Below are positions 5,849 through 20,525 of a stretch of 49,785 nucleotides of DNA, in pieces (the first letter of the stretch is position 1; each line of letters begins with the position of its first letter). Both the position numbers and the translations under genes were made by a program. The stretch covers positions 1 through 49,785 of the forward strand of contig NYTH01000044.1 of the NCBI GenBank assembly GCA_002683405.1, written 5' to 3'. The notes below the pieces were generated by a model. It was given only the letters and a program-made list of their open reading frames with translations. It was not told where the DNA came from and did not search any database. The DNA is from Salinisphaeraceae bacterium. Its GTDB lineage: Bacteria; Pseudomonadota; Gammaproteobacteria; Nevskiales; Salinisphaeraceae.

Positions 5849-8369
<2,521 letters not shown>

Positions 8370-8382
8370 TTGAACGCACTGT

Positions 8383-8404
8383 GGCCCAGCGTTGAAGCTG
8401 GGCC
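8383..8404 (+). terminator. Perfect hairpin after purA
   Basis: GGCCCAGC, loop GTTGAA, GCTGGGCC: an 8-bp perfect stem 14 bp after the purA stop. No T tract follows, so it is either a factor-dependent or attenuating hairpin or an mRNA 3' stabiliser rather than a canonical intrinsic terminator. Confidence 0.45.
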
Positions 8405-8479
8405 GGTTCCATCAGGCGTTGTTCTGTCTTCAGTGCCCTGGGCGCGGGAAAGAGCAAGTGGACGCCACGGCCGCGCAAG

Positions 8480-8976
8480 AAACGGAGTCGGCTCGGCGAT
8501 CAGGCGCCATCGAGAGGAGTTCTGCCTTCAAGCAGGACAGGAGTTTGCTGAGGCGATGCCGGCCTGATTGGATGGAGTTCTTTCTCTACTCCACAGGCTT
8601 GGCCGTGTCTGGCCTGGGGCGGGCTCGTCGCTCTTTAGAGGGGTTCTGCCTATGCGTAGGACAAAACGATTCTGAGGGAATTCCGGCCTGTCTGAATGGA
8701 GTTCTTTCTCTACTCCATAGGCTTGGCCGGGCGTTGCCCGGGGCTGGCTCGTCGCCCTTTGGAGGGGTCCTGCCTTGGAGTAAAGCAATACGATTCTGAG
8801 GGAATTCCGGCCTGTCTGAATGGAGTTCTTTCTCTACTCCATAGGCTTGGCCGGGCGTTGCCCGGGGCGGGCTCGTAGCCCTTTAGAGGGGTTTTGCCTA
8901 TGCGTAGGACAAAACGATTCTGAGGGAATTCCGGCCTGTCTGGATGGAGTTCTTTCTCTACTCCATAGGCCGGAAT
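8480..8976. repeat. Array of 124-bp tandem units next to tRNA-Leu
   Basis: About four units with an exact 124-bp period. GGAATTCC recurs at 8677, 8801 and 8925, with the matching position at 8553 degenerate. ATGGAGT starts at 8572, 8696, 8820 and 8944, each followed 9 nt later by ACTCCA. Each full unit also carries CCGGGC-GTT-GCCCGG or a variant, and a third small hairpin. The leftmost unit is diverged and partial; the rightmost stops at the tRNA-Leu 3' end. The period is not a multiple of three and no protein is credible. In tRNA orientation the array is directly downstream of the tRNA, so it would be transcribed by readthrough. Confidence 0.9.
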
Positions 8977-8977
8977 T
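8927..8977 (-). other. Long two-part hairpin abutting the tRNA-Leu CCA end
   Basis: AATTCCGGCCT (8927-8937) pairs with AGGCCGGAATT (8967-8977), and inside it ATGGAGT (8944-8950) pairs with ACTCCAT (8960-8966), giving 18 bp of stem broken by a six-base bulge. The last base overlaps the final A of the encoded CCA. It probably folds in the tRNA precursor trailer. Other units of the array keep the inner stem but not the outer one. Confidence 0.6.
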
Positions 8978-9063
8978 GGTGCCGAGGAGAGGACTTGAAC
9001 CTCCACGGGCTTTCGCCCACTAGCACCTGAAGCTAGCGCGTCTACCAATTCCGCCACCTCGGC
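8977..9063 (-). tRNA. tRNA-Leu, anticodon CAG
   Basis: An 87-nt tRNA including an encoded CCA. Seven-bp acceptor stem GCCGAGG/CCTCGGC with discriminator A, the D arm containing GGAATTGGTAGACGC, the anticodon arm CTAGC-TTCAGGT-GCTAG with CAG at 9029-9027, a long class II variable arm (GGGC-GAAA-GCCC), and a T arm with GGTTCAAGTCC. The long variable arm and the anticodon identify leucine. It reads CUG, likely the commonest Leu codon in this GC-rich genome. Confidence 0.97.
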
Positions 9064-9076
9064 TACGGCGCCGCGC

Positions 9077-9105
9077 AATCTAATGGCGCGGGGTCGCTTT
9101 GTCAA
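9077..9105 (-). promoter_or_regulatory. tRNA-Leu promoter
   Basis: On the minus strand, consensus TTGACA (9105-9100) and TAGATT (9082-9077) with an ideal 17-bp spacer, 13 bp before the tRNA 5' end. The discriminator region is GC-rich (GCGCGGC), as in stringently controlled stable-RNA promoters. Confidence 0.75.
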
Positions 9106-9165
9106 CGGGTTGAGTTCATCATGCCGGCCCGAGTATTTGAAATCGCCCGACCCAAGGGAGTGAAT

Positions 9166-11421
9166 GTGCCGAAAAAGGCAGCGAACAGGAATGACTGGCA
9201 GCAGCGCGATCCGGCGCTCAAACGCGAGCAGCAGCGGTATGAGCATCCGGTACCCAGCCGTGAGCTGATCCTCCAGGATCTGCAGAAGCAGGGACGTCCC
9301 ATGACGCGCAAACAGCTGGCGAATCATTTCGGCCTGACGGTCGAGGCGGCGGGGAAGGCGCTGGATACACGCATTGCGGCCATGCTGCGCGATGGCCAAC
9401 TCGTGGAGAATCGGCGCGGCGCGCTGGGGCCGCTGGAACGCATGGACCTGGTGCGAGGTCGCGTACAGGGCCATCGCGACGGGTTCGGATTTCTCATCCC
9501 GGACGAGCCCGGTGAGGACGTATTCCTGAACCCCCGCCAGATGCGCGAACTGATGCATGGTGACCGGGCCGTGGTGCGTATTACCGGCTCGGACAATCGC
9601 GGCCGGCGCGAGGGCCGCGTAGTCGACGTGCTCGAGCGCGCCCACACGCGCATCGTCGGCCGCTACAGCCGGCAGAACAATTTCGGCCTGGTTATTCCGG
9701 ACAACTCGCGCATCCAGCATGACATCGTCGTGCCGGACGGGGAGCAGGGCGACGCGCGGGACGGCCAGGTCGTGACCGTCGAGCTGGTCGAGCCGCCGCG
9801 CAAGCGCGGTCAGCCGACCGGTCGCGTCATCGAGGTGCTGGGTGAGCATCTGGACCCGGGGCTGGAAATCGACATCGCCGTACGCGCGCACGGCATTCCG
9901 CACGAGTGGCCCGAGGAAGCACTGGCGCAGGCGCGCTCCATCGGTGACGTGGTGCCGGCCGAACACTACGCCAACCGCGTTGACCTGCGGGACCTGCCGC
10001 TCGTGACCATCGACGGTGAGGATGCCAAGGATTTCGACGACGCCGTGCACTGCGCGCCGACGGCCAAGGGCTGGAAGCTGTGGGTGGCGATAGCCGATGT
10101 CTCGGCCTACGTGGCGGTGGATTCGCCGCTGGACGCCGAAGCGCAGTCGCGCGGCACTTCGGTGTACTTTCCGGGCCACGTGGTGCCCATGCTCCCCGAA
10201 GCGCTGTCCAACGGACTGTGTTCACTGAATCCGAAAGTTGACCGGCTTTGCATGGTCTGCGAAATGCAGATCAACGCCGAGGGCGAGACCACGAAATCGT
10301 CGTTCTATCCGGCCGTCATCAACTCGCACGCACGGCTGACCTACACCCAGGTGGGCGCCTACCTGGAGCACGGCGACCACAAGGCGGTGCCGGCGGCCAT
10401 CGCCCCGCATCTCGATAGCCTCGAAGGCCTGTTCAACGCCTTGTTCGCGGCGCGCCGGCGACGCGGGGCGATCGAATTCGACAGTACCGAAACGCGCATC
10501 GTGTTCAATGAGCAGCGCAAGATTGACCGCATCGAGCCGGTCAGCCGCAATGTCGCGCATCGGCTGATCGAGGAGTGCATGATCGCCGCGAACGTGACTG
10601 CGGCCCGCTTTCTGGCGCGCAAAAAGATGCCGACGCTCTACCGGGTGCATCCCGGACCCGAGGCGGACCGGCTGCAGGAGCTGCGCGACTTTCTGGCCGA
10701 GCGGGGTCTGAGTCTGGGCGGCGGGTCCGACCCCGAGCCAAGGCATTTTGCGCGGGTGCTCGAACTGGCGGGTGCCCGCGAGGATGCCCGGCTGATCCAG
10801 ACCGTACTCATGCGCTCACTCACGCGCGCGGTGTATACGCCCGACAACAGCGGCCATTTCGGGCTGGCCCTGGAGCATTACGCGCACTTCACGTCACCGA
10901 TCCGGCGCTATCCCGACCTGTTGGTTCATCGCGCGATCCGCCACGTGCTTGACGGCGGCACGCCCGATCAGTTTGATTACAGCGGCGCCGCCATGGAGGC
11001 CCTTGGCGCCGGCTGTTCGGCGGCGGAATCCCGAGCCGACGAGGCCACCCGCGACGTGGACGACTGGCTCAAGTGCGAATACATGCGGGATCATCTGGGC
11101 GAGGAGTTTGGCGGCATCATTACCGGCGTGACGCCGTTCGGTCTTTTTGTTGAAATCGACGACGTGTACGCCTCCGGTTTGATACACGTGTCCAGCCTGC
11201 AGAATGACTATTATCATTTCGATGCGACCGCGCACCGGCTGCAGGGCGAACGTTCAGGTATGGTTCATCGCCTGGCCGATAGGGTACGCGTCAAGGTCGC
11301 CAGAGTTGATCTGGACGAACGCAAGATTGATTTTGAGCCCGCGGGCCTTGGGGGTGCGCGGAAATCTTCCGCAAAACCGGCTGGCCGGGGTCCGCGGAAG
11401 CAACGCAAGAAACGGAGATGA
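9166..11421 (+). CDS. rnr: Ribonuclease R
   Basis: Processive 3'-5' exoribonuclease that degrades structured RNA. About 751 residues from the GTG at 9166, chosen because AAGGGAG lies 5 nt before it; an in-frame ATG at 9121 would add 15 residues without a good ribosome-binding site. Order: N-terminal winged-helix segment (PSRELILQDLQKQGRPMTRKQLANHF), cold-shock domains, RNB catalytic domain with the acidic cluster IDGEDAKDFDDAV and with YAHFTSPIRRYPDL, S1 domain (GGIITGVTPFGLFVEIDD), and a basic Lys/Arg tail. Divergent from tRNA-Leu; its stop overlaps or nearly meets the next gene. Confidence 0.95.
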   Translation: MPKKAANRNDWQQRDPALKREQQRYEHPVPSRELILQDLQKQGRPMTRKQLANHFGLTVEAAGKALDTRIAAMLRDGQLVENRRGALGPLERMDLVRGRVQGHRDGFGFLIPDEPGEDVFLNPRQMRELMHGDRAVVRITGSDNRGRREGRVVDVLERAHTRIVGRYSRQNNFGLVIPDNSRIQHDIVVPDGEQGDARDGQVVTVELVEPPRKRGQPTGRVIEVLGEHLDPGLEIDIAVRAHGIPHEWPEEALAQARSIGDVVPAEHYANRVDLRDLPLVTIDGEDAKDFDDAVHCAPTAKGWKLWVAIADVSAYVAVDSPLDAEAQSRGTSVYFPGHVVPMLPEALSNGLCSLNPKVDRLCMVCEMQINAEGETTKSSFYPAVINSHARLTYTQVGAYLEHGDHKAVPAAIAPHLDSLEGLFNALFAARRRRGAIEFDSTETRIVFNEQRKIDRIEPVSRNVAHRLIEECMIAANVTAARFLARKKMPTLYRVHPGPEADRLQELRDFLAERGLSLGGGSDPEPRHFARVLELAGAREDARLIQTVLMRSLTRAVYTPDNSGHFGLALEHYAHFTSPIRRYPDLLVHRAIRHVLDGGTPDQFDYSGAAMEALGAGCSAAESRADEATRDVDDWLKCEYMRDHLGEEFGGIITGVTPFGLFVEIDDVYASGLIHVSSLQNDYYHFDATAHRLQGERSGMVHRLADRVRVKVARVDLDERKIDFEPAGLGGARKSSAKPAGRGPRKQRKKRR

Positions 11422-18285: not shown

Positions 18286-19569
18286 CTACTGACGCGCGCG
18301 CCGCCGCGTTGATTTTGCCGGCGGACGGATGCGCACCGAGCGAACCAGATTGGCTCGCGTCTGCGCAATTTCGAACACATAGTCGCGGAACTTGAAGGTC
18401 GCACCGGCTTCGGGAATCGTCTCCAGATGTTCCAGGACCAGGCCGTTGACGGTCTTGGGGCCGTCCAGCGGCAGCTTCCAGCCCATGGCGCGATTCAGCG
18501 AGCGCAGCGTGACGTTGCCGTTGACCAGATAGCTGTCTTTCGACTCCATGTAGACGTTCTTGACCCGCGTGGCGGGGTCGCTGGTGAATTCGCCCACGAT
18601 CTCCTCGAGAATGTCCTCCAGGGTCACCAGACCCTGGATATCGCCGTATTCATCCACCACGAAGCCGATGCGGCGGCGCTGGGTCTGGAAATTGAGCAGC
18701 TGCTGATTGAGCGGCGTGCCCTCCGGGATGTAATAGGGGTCACGCGCCAGCTCGAGCATCTTTTCCTTGTCCAGGTTGTCGTCGGCCAGCAGCGACAGCA
18801 CCCGGCGCAGATGCACCATGCCACGCAGCTCGTCGATCGAGCCGTCGTACAGCGGTAGCCGCGTATGCTCGTTGCTGACCAGCTGGGCGAGGATGTCGGC
18901 CCAGGGCAGCGACAGGTCGATACCGACAATTTCGTTGCGCGGCACCATGATGTCCTCGACGGTCGCGTTTTCCAGATCGAGCACGGACAGCAGCATCTGC
19001 TGATGCCGCCGCGGAATCATGGCGCCGGCTTCCGTGACCACGGTGCGCAGTTCCTCGGAGCTCAGGTTGTGGGCGGCGGCGTCCTCCGGCGACACTCGGA
19101 CCAGCTTGAGAATGCCGTTCGTGATCAGGTTGATGACGAAGACCAGCGGCCACAGTACCCGCAGCAGCGGGCCGTACACATACGACGCCGGAAAGGCGAT
19201 TTTCTCGGGATGGAGAGCGGCAAGCGTTTTCGGCGTGACTTCCGAGCAGATCAGGATGACCAGCGTCAGGAATATGGTGGCCAGCAGAATGCCCAGTTCG
19301 CCGAACAGCCGCAGCCCGATGATGGTCGCCACCGCGGACGCGGCGATGTTGACCAGGTTGTTACCGAGCAGGATGACGCCAATCAGCCGGTCCGGGCGCT
19401 CGAGCAGGCTGGCCGCGCGACGGGCGCCGCCATGCCCGGCTTTCTGCAGGTGCTTCAGCCGGTAGCGGTTGAGCGTCATCAGGCCCGTCTCGGAGCCCGA
19501 AAAGAATCCCGAGAGGATAATGAGTATCGCGAGAATGCCGAAAAGAACCGGCAGCGAGATTTCGTCCAA
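18286..19569 (-). CDS. CorB/YfjD-like CNNM-CBS transporter-family membrane protein
   Basis: 427 residues. The N-terminal DUF21/CNNM domain (about 1-190) has several transmembrane helices with FFSGSETGLMTLNRYRL, GNNLVNIAASA and SEVTPKTLAALHPE. A CBS pair follows (DIMVPRNEIVGIDLS; GFVVDEYGDIQGLVTLEDILEEIVGEF), then a CorC_HlyC C-terminal domain. Bacterial relatives bind Mg-ATP and are linked to magnesium or cobalt efflux. Its neighbour is the YpjD/CorE-like gene, the same pairing as yfjD-ypjD beside ffh in E. coli, which supports a CorB-like role. Direction of ion transport is not shown by sequence. Confidence 0.92.
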   Translation of the reverse strand: MDEISLPVLFGILAILIILSGFFSGSETGLMTLNRYRLKHLQKAGHGGARRAASLLERPDRLIGVILLGNNLVNIAASAVATIIGLRLFGELGILLATIFLTLVILICSEVTPKTLAALHPEKIAFPASYVYGPLLRVLWPLVFVINLITNGILKLVRVSPEDAAAHNLSSEELRTVVTEAGAMIPRRHQQMLLSVLDLENATVEDIMVPRNEIVGIDLSLPWADILAQLVSNEHTRLPLYDGSIDELRGMVHLRRVLSLLADDNLDKEKMLELARDPYYIPEGTPLNQQLLNFQTQRRRIGFVVDEYGDIQGLVTLEDILEEIVGEFTSDPATRVKNVYMESKDSYLVNGNVTLRSLNRAMGWKLPLDGPKTVNGLVLEHLETIPEAGATFKFRDYVFEIAQTRANLVRSVRIRPPAKSTRRRARQ

Positions 19570-19718
19570 GGAGAACGACCTATAAAACCGTTGACGAAAT
19601 GGGCGCCGTTAGCTGTAGCGGCGGGCGTCGGACGGCCCGCTCATCACGGCGTGCGCCGTATGGCTACCCGGCCCTCTTGTACATGATTTGTTCATAGTCG
19701 TTGCCGCAGCCCGCGCGG

Positions 19719-20525
19719 TCAAGTCCAGTGCTCACCCAGCATCAGTTCCAGCACCAGCTTGCTGCCGAAGTAGGCCAGCAGAAGCAGGCCGTAGCCGCCC
19801 AGTGTCCAGCGGACGGCCGTTTGACCGCGCCAGCCCGAACGCCATCGTCCCCATAGCAGCACGGCAAAAAACGCCCAGGCCAGCAGCGACAGCACGGTCT
19901 TGTGCGCCAGGTGCTGGGCAAACAGGTGCTCGATGAAGAAAGCACCGCTGACAATGGCCAGCGTAAGCATGGCAAAACCGGAGGCAATCAGCCTGAACAG
20001 CAGCGTTTCCATGGTCTGCAGCGGTGGCAGACTGGCGGCGAGCCGACCGGGTTGATGGTCGTGCAGGCGCCGGTGCTGAATGGCCATGACGCAGGCCTGG
20101 ACGGCGCCCAGCGTCAACAGCCCGTAGGCGATAAGCGACAGGAATATGTGCGCCTGCAGCGTCCAGTCCAGCTCCGCTATCGATGAATTGCCGGGAGGCA
20201 GCCATTGCGCCGCGAACAGCATGGCCGCCGCGGCGGGATACACCACGACGCCCAGCACGCCCATGGGCTGGCGCAGCGCGAACAGCCAGAGCAGCAGCGC
20301 TGCCTGCCAGGCAAACAGCGACATCGCCAGGCCGAGGTCGATACGCATTCCCTCGTTATCCGTGAGCCGCAGCAGGAGCAGGACCAGATGCAGCGCGACA
20401 GCCGCGAATGCCGCGAGGGAGGCGCCTCGGGGGGTTCGGCCATCTTCCAGGGCGCGCCAGATGACGACACCCGCGAGCAGGTAGGCGGCCAGCGCCGCGG
20501 CAACAAGAAGGGGAGGCAGACTCAT
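19719..20525 (-). CDS. YpjD/CorE-like inner-membrane protein (CcsA-type cytochrome c assembly fold)
   Basis: 268 residues, seven to eight hydrophobic helices. Contains TLQAHIFLSLIAYGLLTLGAVQA, HRRLHDHQPG, LPPLQTMETLLFRLI and HLAHKTVLSLLAWAFFAVLLWGRW, the pattern of the CcsA-like YpjD family encoded next to ffh. The start is the ATG at 20525-20523; the frame runs further upstream but crosses ffh. In E. coli and Salmonella the homologue is linked to CorA/CorB metal transport phenotypes rather than cytochrome assembly. Divergent from ffh. Confidence 0.9.
   Translation of the reverse strand: MSLPPLLVAAALAAYLLAGVVIWRALEDGRTPRGASLAAFAAVALHLVLLLLRLTDNEGMRIDLGLAMSLFAWQAALLLWLFALRQPMGVLGVVVYPAAAAMLFAAQWLPPGNSSIAELDWTLQAHIFLSLIAYGLLTLGAVQACVMAIQHRRLHDHQPGRLAASLPPLQTMETLLFRLIASGFAMLTLAIVSGAFFIEHLFAQHLAHKTVLSLLAWAFFAVLLWGRWRSGWRGQTAVRWTLGGYGLLLLAYFGSKLVLELMLGEHWT

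Follow-up and report, generated by a model that had tools for sequence, protein, structure and literature searches.

Why does a tandem array of 124-bp repeats stand directly behind a tRNA gene, in the 3' trailer that is usually regarded as discard? The question is raised by a contig of a Salinisphaeraceae bacterium (assembly GCA_002683405.1, contig NYTH01000044.1), of which positions 1 to 49,785 were analysed and are referred to here as the window, and in which the repeats follow tRNA-Leu(CAG), the sole tRNA gene present. Our analysis indicates that the Leu(CAG) array is one of a family of structured tRNA trailers, so far seen in no other genome, the structure of which is well supported, and that this family starts precisely at the 3' end of about one-quarter of the tRNA genes of the genome.

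RESULTS

The array spans 8505-8970 with about 3.8 units of 124 bp, begins at the CCA end of tRNA-Leu(CAG) (8977..9063, minus strand, CCA encoded; identified by ARAGORN and by the Rfam tRNA model at 55 bits), and runs in the direction of transcription of this gene. Tandem Repeats Finder (TRF) delimits it at 8548-8970, with a period of 124, 3.4 copies, 87% matches and 0% indels, and an ungapped self-comparison takes it out to 8505. Compared in register, unit 1 (8851..8974), unit 2 (8727..8850) and unit 3 (8603..8726), all read on the minus strand, are pairwise identical at 108 to 112 of 124 positions (108 for unit 2 with either of the others, 112 for units 1 and 3). Unit 4 (8505..8602, minus strand), the most distant from the tRNA, is divergent, with 77 to 80 of 124 positions shared with the others over the register 8479-8602, and its far end is incomplete, the final stretch being unrelated and ungapped homology stopping near 8505. 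The differences are patchy, one stretch being common to units 1 and 3 but not unit 2 and another to units 1 and 2 but not unit 3, which suggests exchange between units, and since the units differ from one another, the sequence argues against a plain assembly duplication. With a period not divisible by 3, a coding repeat is unlikely. Over 12 nt, unit 4 resembles the tRNA T arm, a likeness that was set aside, as 14 of 300 shuffles reached it.

Within its own genome, the full 124-bp unit was found by BLAST at the Leu(CAG) locus only, and two weak matches of it lay behind other tRNAs; we therefore surveyed the tRNA flanks genome-wide, covering 43 genes found with the Rfam tRNA model, each with as much as 900 nt of downstream sequence (the flanks of Arg(CCT) and Gln(CTG) being 91 and 385 nt long). 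A perfect 8-bp stem with a loop of 20 to 52 nt and its 5' arm exactly at the first position after CCA (CCA+1) was present at 11 of the 43 tRNAs: Leu(CAA), Leu(CAG), Leu(TAA), Leu(TAG), Lys(TTT), Pro(CGG), Pro(GGG), Pro(TGG), Tyr, Val(CAC) and Asn. The starting point is sharply defined: such stems began at +1 in 11 flanks, at +2 in 4 and at +3 in 1, and the other 58 offsets gave 4 together. In a complete relative used for comparison (G010), the CCA+1 stem was found behind 0 of 46 tRNAs.

Four extra copies behind second or split tRNA 3' ends bring the total to 15. At Lys(CTT), the 3' end of the tRNA is present twice and the element follows the second of these, and at Pro(CGG) a second element follows a further 3'-end copy. 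A tRNA-Phe 3' half near the end of contig C28 (L111), identical over 46 nt, bears the element, and another copy lies behind a 22-nt copy of the same end. Because the intact tRNA-Phe on contig C43 (L048) is followed by a phage-integrase-family gene, we read the C28 half as probably marking the distal boundary of an island that has inserted into tRNA-Phe. The first-pass annotation had named the same unit near tRNA genes as support, and this was obtained in part, within the own genome: the opening hairpin of the unit and the motif that follows occur at a dozen other tRNA 3' ends, but the full 124-bp unit does not.

The stem is held by matching mutations between loci. The 15 aligned copies include the arm pairs TTTCCCGCC/GGCGGGAAA, ATTCCGGCC/GGCCGGAAT, TTTCGCGCC/GGCGCGAAA, TTTCCCACC/AGTGGGAAA and ATTCCCGCC/AGCGGGAAT, and four stem positions change on both sides yet remain paired (13 cells, 15 copies). 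The covariation score of 0.298 was reached by 0 of 500 shuffles, and slid registers gave at most 0.030; covariation was also computed with 11 copies. In alignment A3, Asn is out of register by one column, which counts against the structure. A ninth stem pair is unformed in 10 of the 15 copies. At the other end, a T follows the 3' arm in 14 of the 15, so that A76 of the CCA end can lengthen the stem.

Leu(CAG) itself has the stem from CCA+1 and the T after the 3' arm. The 5' arm consists of A76 and trailer positions +1 to +10 (8967..8977, minus strand; inverted repeat I3) and is complementary at 11 of 11 positions to the 3' arm of unit 1 (8927..8937, minus strand). The inner hairpin of unit 1, ATGGAGT/AGAGAAAGA/ACTCCAT (8944..8966, minus strand), is near-invariant across the four Leu(CAG) units, and a related GGAG...CTCC loop is present in the Leu(TAG) and Phe copies. 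Units 2 and 3 each contain the 8-nt 3' arm again, and unit 4 has a changed form of it. In a local fold of the tRNA plus 75 nt, the pairs of +1 to +8 have probabilities of 0.94 to 1.00, and among the 11 loci folded in this way the +1 stem was favoured in 8 (first pair 0.76 to 0.95; Leu(CAG) 0.94). With the whole first unit attached, the minimum-energy fold forms the +1 stem while the acceptor stem pairs elsewhere, and the centroid fold retains both. The match of Leu(CAG) to the covariance model of the element (50.9 to 51.8 bits) is high by construction, since this copy is in the model.

Unit 1 and the whole array fold far better than their shuffles (z -5.05 and -4.82), and units 2, 3 and 4 folded alone do not (z -1.43, -1.50 and -0.66). 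The inverted repeats that the first-pass annotation had seen in every unit are backed by the folding of unit 1 and of the array as a whole, although not all units make stable hairpin structures by themselves. It was also right that readthrough of the tRNA transcript would yield a structured RNA.

Seven trailer loci are tandem arrays, with periods varying from 59 to 128 bp. TRF found 127 bp x 3.7 at Pro(TGG), 128 x 4.2 at Lys(CTT), 127 x 2.7 at Pro(GGG), 60 x 3.4 at Leu(CAA), 59 x 3.9 at Tyr, 81 x 2.2 at Leu(TAG) and 124 x 3.4 at Leu(CAG). A repeat with a period of at least 40 occurred in 10 of the 43 tRNA 3' flanks (Thr(CGT) and Ser(TGA) lying in one array), in 4 of 46 in G010 (Arg(ACG) and Ser(GCT) in one array) and in 6 of 540 flank-length background tiles drawn from 400 kb of the own genome, some of these being CRISPR repeats. 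The excess in flanks over tiles rules out a chance array and, together with TRF and the self-comparison, bears out the 124-bp tandem array of the first-pass annotation. Two CRISPR arrays with 61-bp spacing lie on contig C28 (L176:4459-8112 and 19329-19779), and their repeat is one that we take to resemble type I-E. Over 900 nt at each of the seven tRNA loci, the opening 8 nt of the 5' arm are present a single time, whereas 2 to 5 copies of their complement are found; the repeated part is the 3' half of the element.

The stem is followed by a C-rich motif, YCCTCCTCCA at its fullest and shortened to CCCTC at Leu(CAG). Allowing up to 2 mismatches, GGAAWTYCCTCCTCCA has 33 sites in the genome and the reversed pattern has 2. 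Inspected by eye, 26 of the 33 lie within 900 nt behind a tRNA on the same strand, as do 14 of the 14 exact ones. The long units behind the Pro tRNAs and Lys(CTT) (L089, L090, L091) and Val(CAC) (L064) have GGGAGGAAAACGG in common, which complements the TTTCCTCC motif and in places stands just upstream of an ATG, like a ribosome-binding site (both by eye).

No intrinsic terminator (GC-rich stem plus T run) was called by our scan on either strand in 8300-9200, so that an ordinary terminator of this kind was not found at Leu(CAG). For the 12 trailer tRNAs (the 11 with the CCA+1 stem and Lys(CTT)), the scan called one within 250 nt in 0 of 12, compared to 8 of the 31 others and 18 of 46 in G010; it is incomplete, as the L029 flank has a stem and T run that were not called. 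Over the first 250 nt, the C-over-G skew averaged 0.147 at the 12 trailer loci (Leu(CAG) +0.12) versus -0.007 at 30 others, Arg(CCT) being excluded for its short flank. A search for RNase Z, a candidate processing enzyme, gave matches in four of four genomes, none of them above the cut-off; the best, partial and scoring 54 bits, came from the own genome.

The family sample comprised 17 genomes, in which the window genome is the sole member of its genus. A search with RNase R placed the same neighbourhood in the 16 other genomes, with tRNA-Leu(CAG) adjoining in 16 of 16. In one of these (G013), the sequence after Leu(CAG) is 1 nt long; hence, 15 were counted. Among the 15 readable flanks, none had a repeat with a period of at least 40, none had a CCA+1 stem and 10 had an intrinsic terminator within 250 nt by the scan, which misses some. 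In the window, tRNA-Leu(CAG) is flanked by two plus-strand genes, purA, with its stop codon at 8367-8369, and that of RNase R (9121-11421), both named by matches above curated NCBIfam cut-offs. A promoter-like site upstream of the tRNA gene (9077..9105, minus strand; TTGACA, 17-nt spacer, TAGATT; 10 of 12 consensus matches) was the one found in the consensus scan, versus 0.3 expected in shuffles.

Covariance models of the element found convincing copies in the own genome only, among 146 genomes (R2) and among 369 genomes of the class and 85 of the order (R3), under stricter filters; the sets overlap and each includes the own genome. One weak match in each of 8 other genomes (E 0.005 to 0.08) was dropped, as ARAGORN found no tRNA at any of the 8 loci. 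Conservation of the unit across genera is not supported: the first-pass annotation had listed a lack of homologous units in relatives among its refuting outcomes, no such units were found in the genomes searched, and the faint 25- to 34-nt BLAST matches in 5 of 145 other genomes (E 0.0026 to 0.0098) were not taken as copies. The pattern GGAGTNGAGAAAGAACTCC had 12 single matches across phyla in genome contigs and 1 in a viral contig, about the chance number; pattern scans of viral contigs, this one included, gave 1, 0 and 1 stretches. The Leu(CAG) array had no match in phages, and the Pro(GGG) array had none in plasmids.

The nearest known relatives in kind are the tRNA-linked repeats of Escherichia coli, first described in 1978, for which no function was known before a 2021 report on three of them, according to that paper (PMC8144298). 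There are 22 in E. coli, each with an 18- to 19-bp copy of a tRNA or rRNA 3' end (PMC8144298). Like these repeats, including those of tyrT, the Leu(CAG) array lies directly behind a tRNA, beginning at its 3' end, in the direction of transcription, with one to several units per locus, and is lineage-specific. In contrast, its units lack a copy of the tRNA 3' end: within the 900 nt downstream, the last 18 nt are matched at best with 6 mismatches, and exact words from the last 19 nt reach 7 nt at most. A covarying stem fixed at CCA+1 is absent from the description of tRNA-linked repeats in the portion of the 2021 paper drawn on here.

Elsewhere in the genome, 11 of the 43 tRNAs, Leu(CAG) not among them, have their own last 18 nt repeated within 900 nt downstream with at most 2 mismatches, and 20 shuffles per flank never gave fewer than 3 mismatches. 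In G010, such copies follow 7 of 46 tRNAs, two of them the same (Gln(TTG) and Val(GAC)). The family therefore has ordinary tRNA-linked repeats, to which the own genome adds a class of CCA-abutting hairpins, and it is to this additional class that the present finding belongs. Repeats of the E. coli type are seen at L078:1265-1623 (Ser(TGA)), L067, L068, L051, L085, L087, L079, L058, L081 and L089. Part of their cores, CTCGCTGCGCTCG, has 11 sites, 6 of them no more than some 300 bases away from the end of a contig (C11, C28, C29, C37 and both ends of C54), and the repeats therefore probably break the assembly. Arrays of 175 and 221 bp also occur upstream of a tRNA, at L083:2311-2734 (Ser(GCT)) and L067:1561-2024 (Gln(TTG)), their first part overlapping the tRNA 5' end.

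An RNA from the array would resemble the rtT RNA of Rfam in coming from repeats behind a tRNA gene, but rtT is not among the 7 Rfam matches listed up to an E value of 10 in 8370-9070. The first-pass annotation was right to liken this hairpin-bearing array to the E. coli tyrT repeats in the absence of recognisable homology. At the gathering score, Rfam has no family in the window besides tRNA. In a literature search covering titles and the starts of abstracts, with most subscription journals outside it, we found no paper on bacterial tRNA trailers with a covarying hairpin anchored at CCA+1.

DISCUSSION

The family probably aids the end of transcription of these tRNAs and shields or processes their ends. 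The lack of a terminator by the scan, the C-rich strand and the favoured +1 stem together suggested zones of Rho-dependent termination behind a shielding or processing hairpin. The Leu(CAG) array would be transcribed together with the tRNA, as its 3' trailer, and the hairpin at CCA+1 would shield the CCA end against 3'-5' exonucleases until removed by an endonuclease or a structure-tolerant exonuclease. The C-rich tract behind the hairpin may load Rho, the repeats then acting as serial Rho-dependent terminators where most relatives use an intrinsic terminator. The tandem copies could have come from slippage or unequal recombination and would add termination sites and spare 3' arms. As a whole, this account of a lineage-specific structured trailer, with CCA shielding and Rho-dependent termination via C-rich repeats, is one that we hold tentatively, at somewhat less than an even chance. 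Known Rho-dependent terminators would share with these loci, other than Tyr and Lys(TTT), a C-over-G tract behind a transcript without an apparent intrinsic terminator, whereas a CCA-abutting hairpin and tandem units are foreign to that class. The E. coli tyrT repeats contain a Rho-dependent site, on which our literature search yielded no paper.

Several results weigh against this account. On the side of termination, the contrast in intrinsic terminators is weak (Fisher p 0.08), the skew drops to 0.10 versus -0.008 without the first 65 nt (p 0.002, or p 0.013 when homologous loci are merged into 8), and the Tyr and Lys(TTT) flanks show no excess of C over G. On the side of the stem, the +1 pairing is weak in the local folds of Leu(TAA) (0.28), Tyr (0.11) and Val(CAC) (0.20). 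The 15 copies are paralogs in one genome, so the independent events are few, fewer than the cells counted, and 2 of 5 covariation measures did not clearly exceed shuffles (double-change pairs reached in 51 of 500, further pair types in 432 of 500). Among the four Leu(CAG) units, no covariation was found, shuffles scoring equally well. Lastly, the stem needs the 5' arm, and because the internal units are without it, the repeats themselves are left unexplained by the stem.

In one alternative, the CCA-abutting hairpin protects or positions the tRNA for 3' maturation and the tandem copies are neutral products of slippage or recombination that have no part in termination. The visible constraint is on the first stem, units 2 to 4 fold no better than shuffles when alone, unit 4 is decaying, the array periods vary between loci and two of the flanks are not C-rich, all of which fits; yet the 3' half is expanded in seven trailer loci, above random slippage as judged by the flanks and tiles, and the trailer loci are without another apparent terminator. 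We consider processing alone unlikely, though with a real chance of being right. Going further than shielding, the hairpin might act as a lock on the CCA end, pairing A76 and keeping CCA out of reach of trimming and charging for as long as the hairpin stays closed, with the tandem 3' arms as interchangeable partners of the single 5' arm, and so give the Leu, Pro, Lys, Tyr, Val, Phe and Asn tRNAs that carry it a tunable maturation switch in common; this we put forward as a doubtful extension.

The elements might also be of no benefit to the cell, being short selfish or recombinational DNA repeats spreading from one tRNA 3' end to another in the manner of the neighbouring tRNA-linked repeats. 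Their confinement to one genome among those searched would agree with this, as would the duplicated tRNA 3' end that accompanies some copies (Lys(CTT), Pro(CGG) and Phe) and the fact that the tRNA 3'-end copies of G010 are mostly on different tRNAs. Against it speak the compensatory changes that preserve the stem at several loci and the start fixed at +1, and the arrays tried matched no phages or plasmids; a selfish origin is improbable in our view. The released trailer might instead be a regulatory RNA, a sponge that titrates a protein or small RNAs, as has been proposed for the E. coli leuZ spacer and for repeats that follow rRNA operons. Of the E. coli tRNA-linked repeats, three that lie downstream of rRNA operons bind Hfq and CsrA, and a leuZ spacer sponge appears as the title of a cited work in the same paper (PMC8144298). 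In favour of this, the arrays multiply a short motif. However, in 6 of the 7 arrays the transcribed strand has fewer GGA, the core of CsrA sites, than its complement (8 versus 16 at Leu(CAG)), and we regard a sponge as very improbable here. The leuZ spacer, a 3' external transcribed spacer (3'ETS), resembles the present trailer in being RNA from behind a tRNA-Leu gene, and is not known to be an array.

If the account of shielding and termination is to be judged, this genome is a favourable place to do so. It contains, beside classic tRNA-linked repeats, a set of paralogous trailers whose structure is anchored at the base next to CCA and preserved by compensatory change. With many replicate loci in one cell that are missing from the sister genomes searched, a role of tRNA-linked repeats in termination or end maturation could be tested directly.
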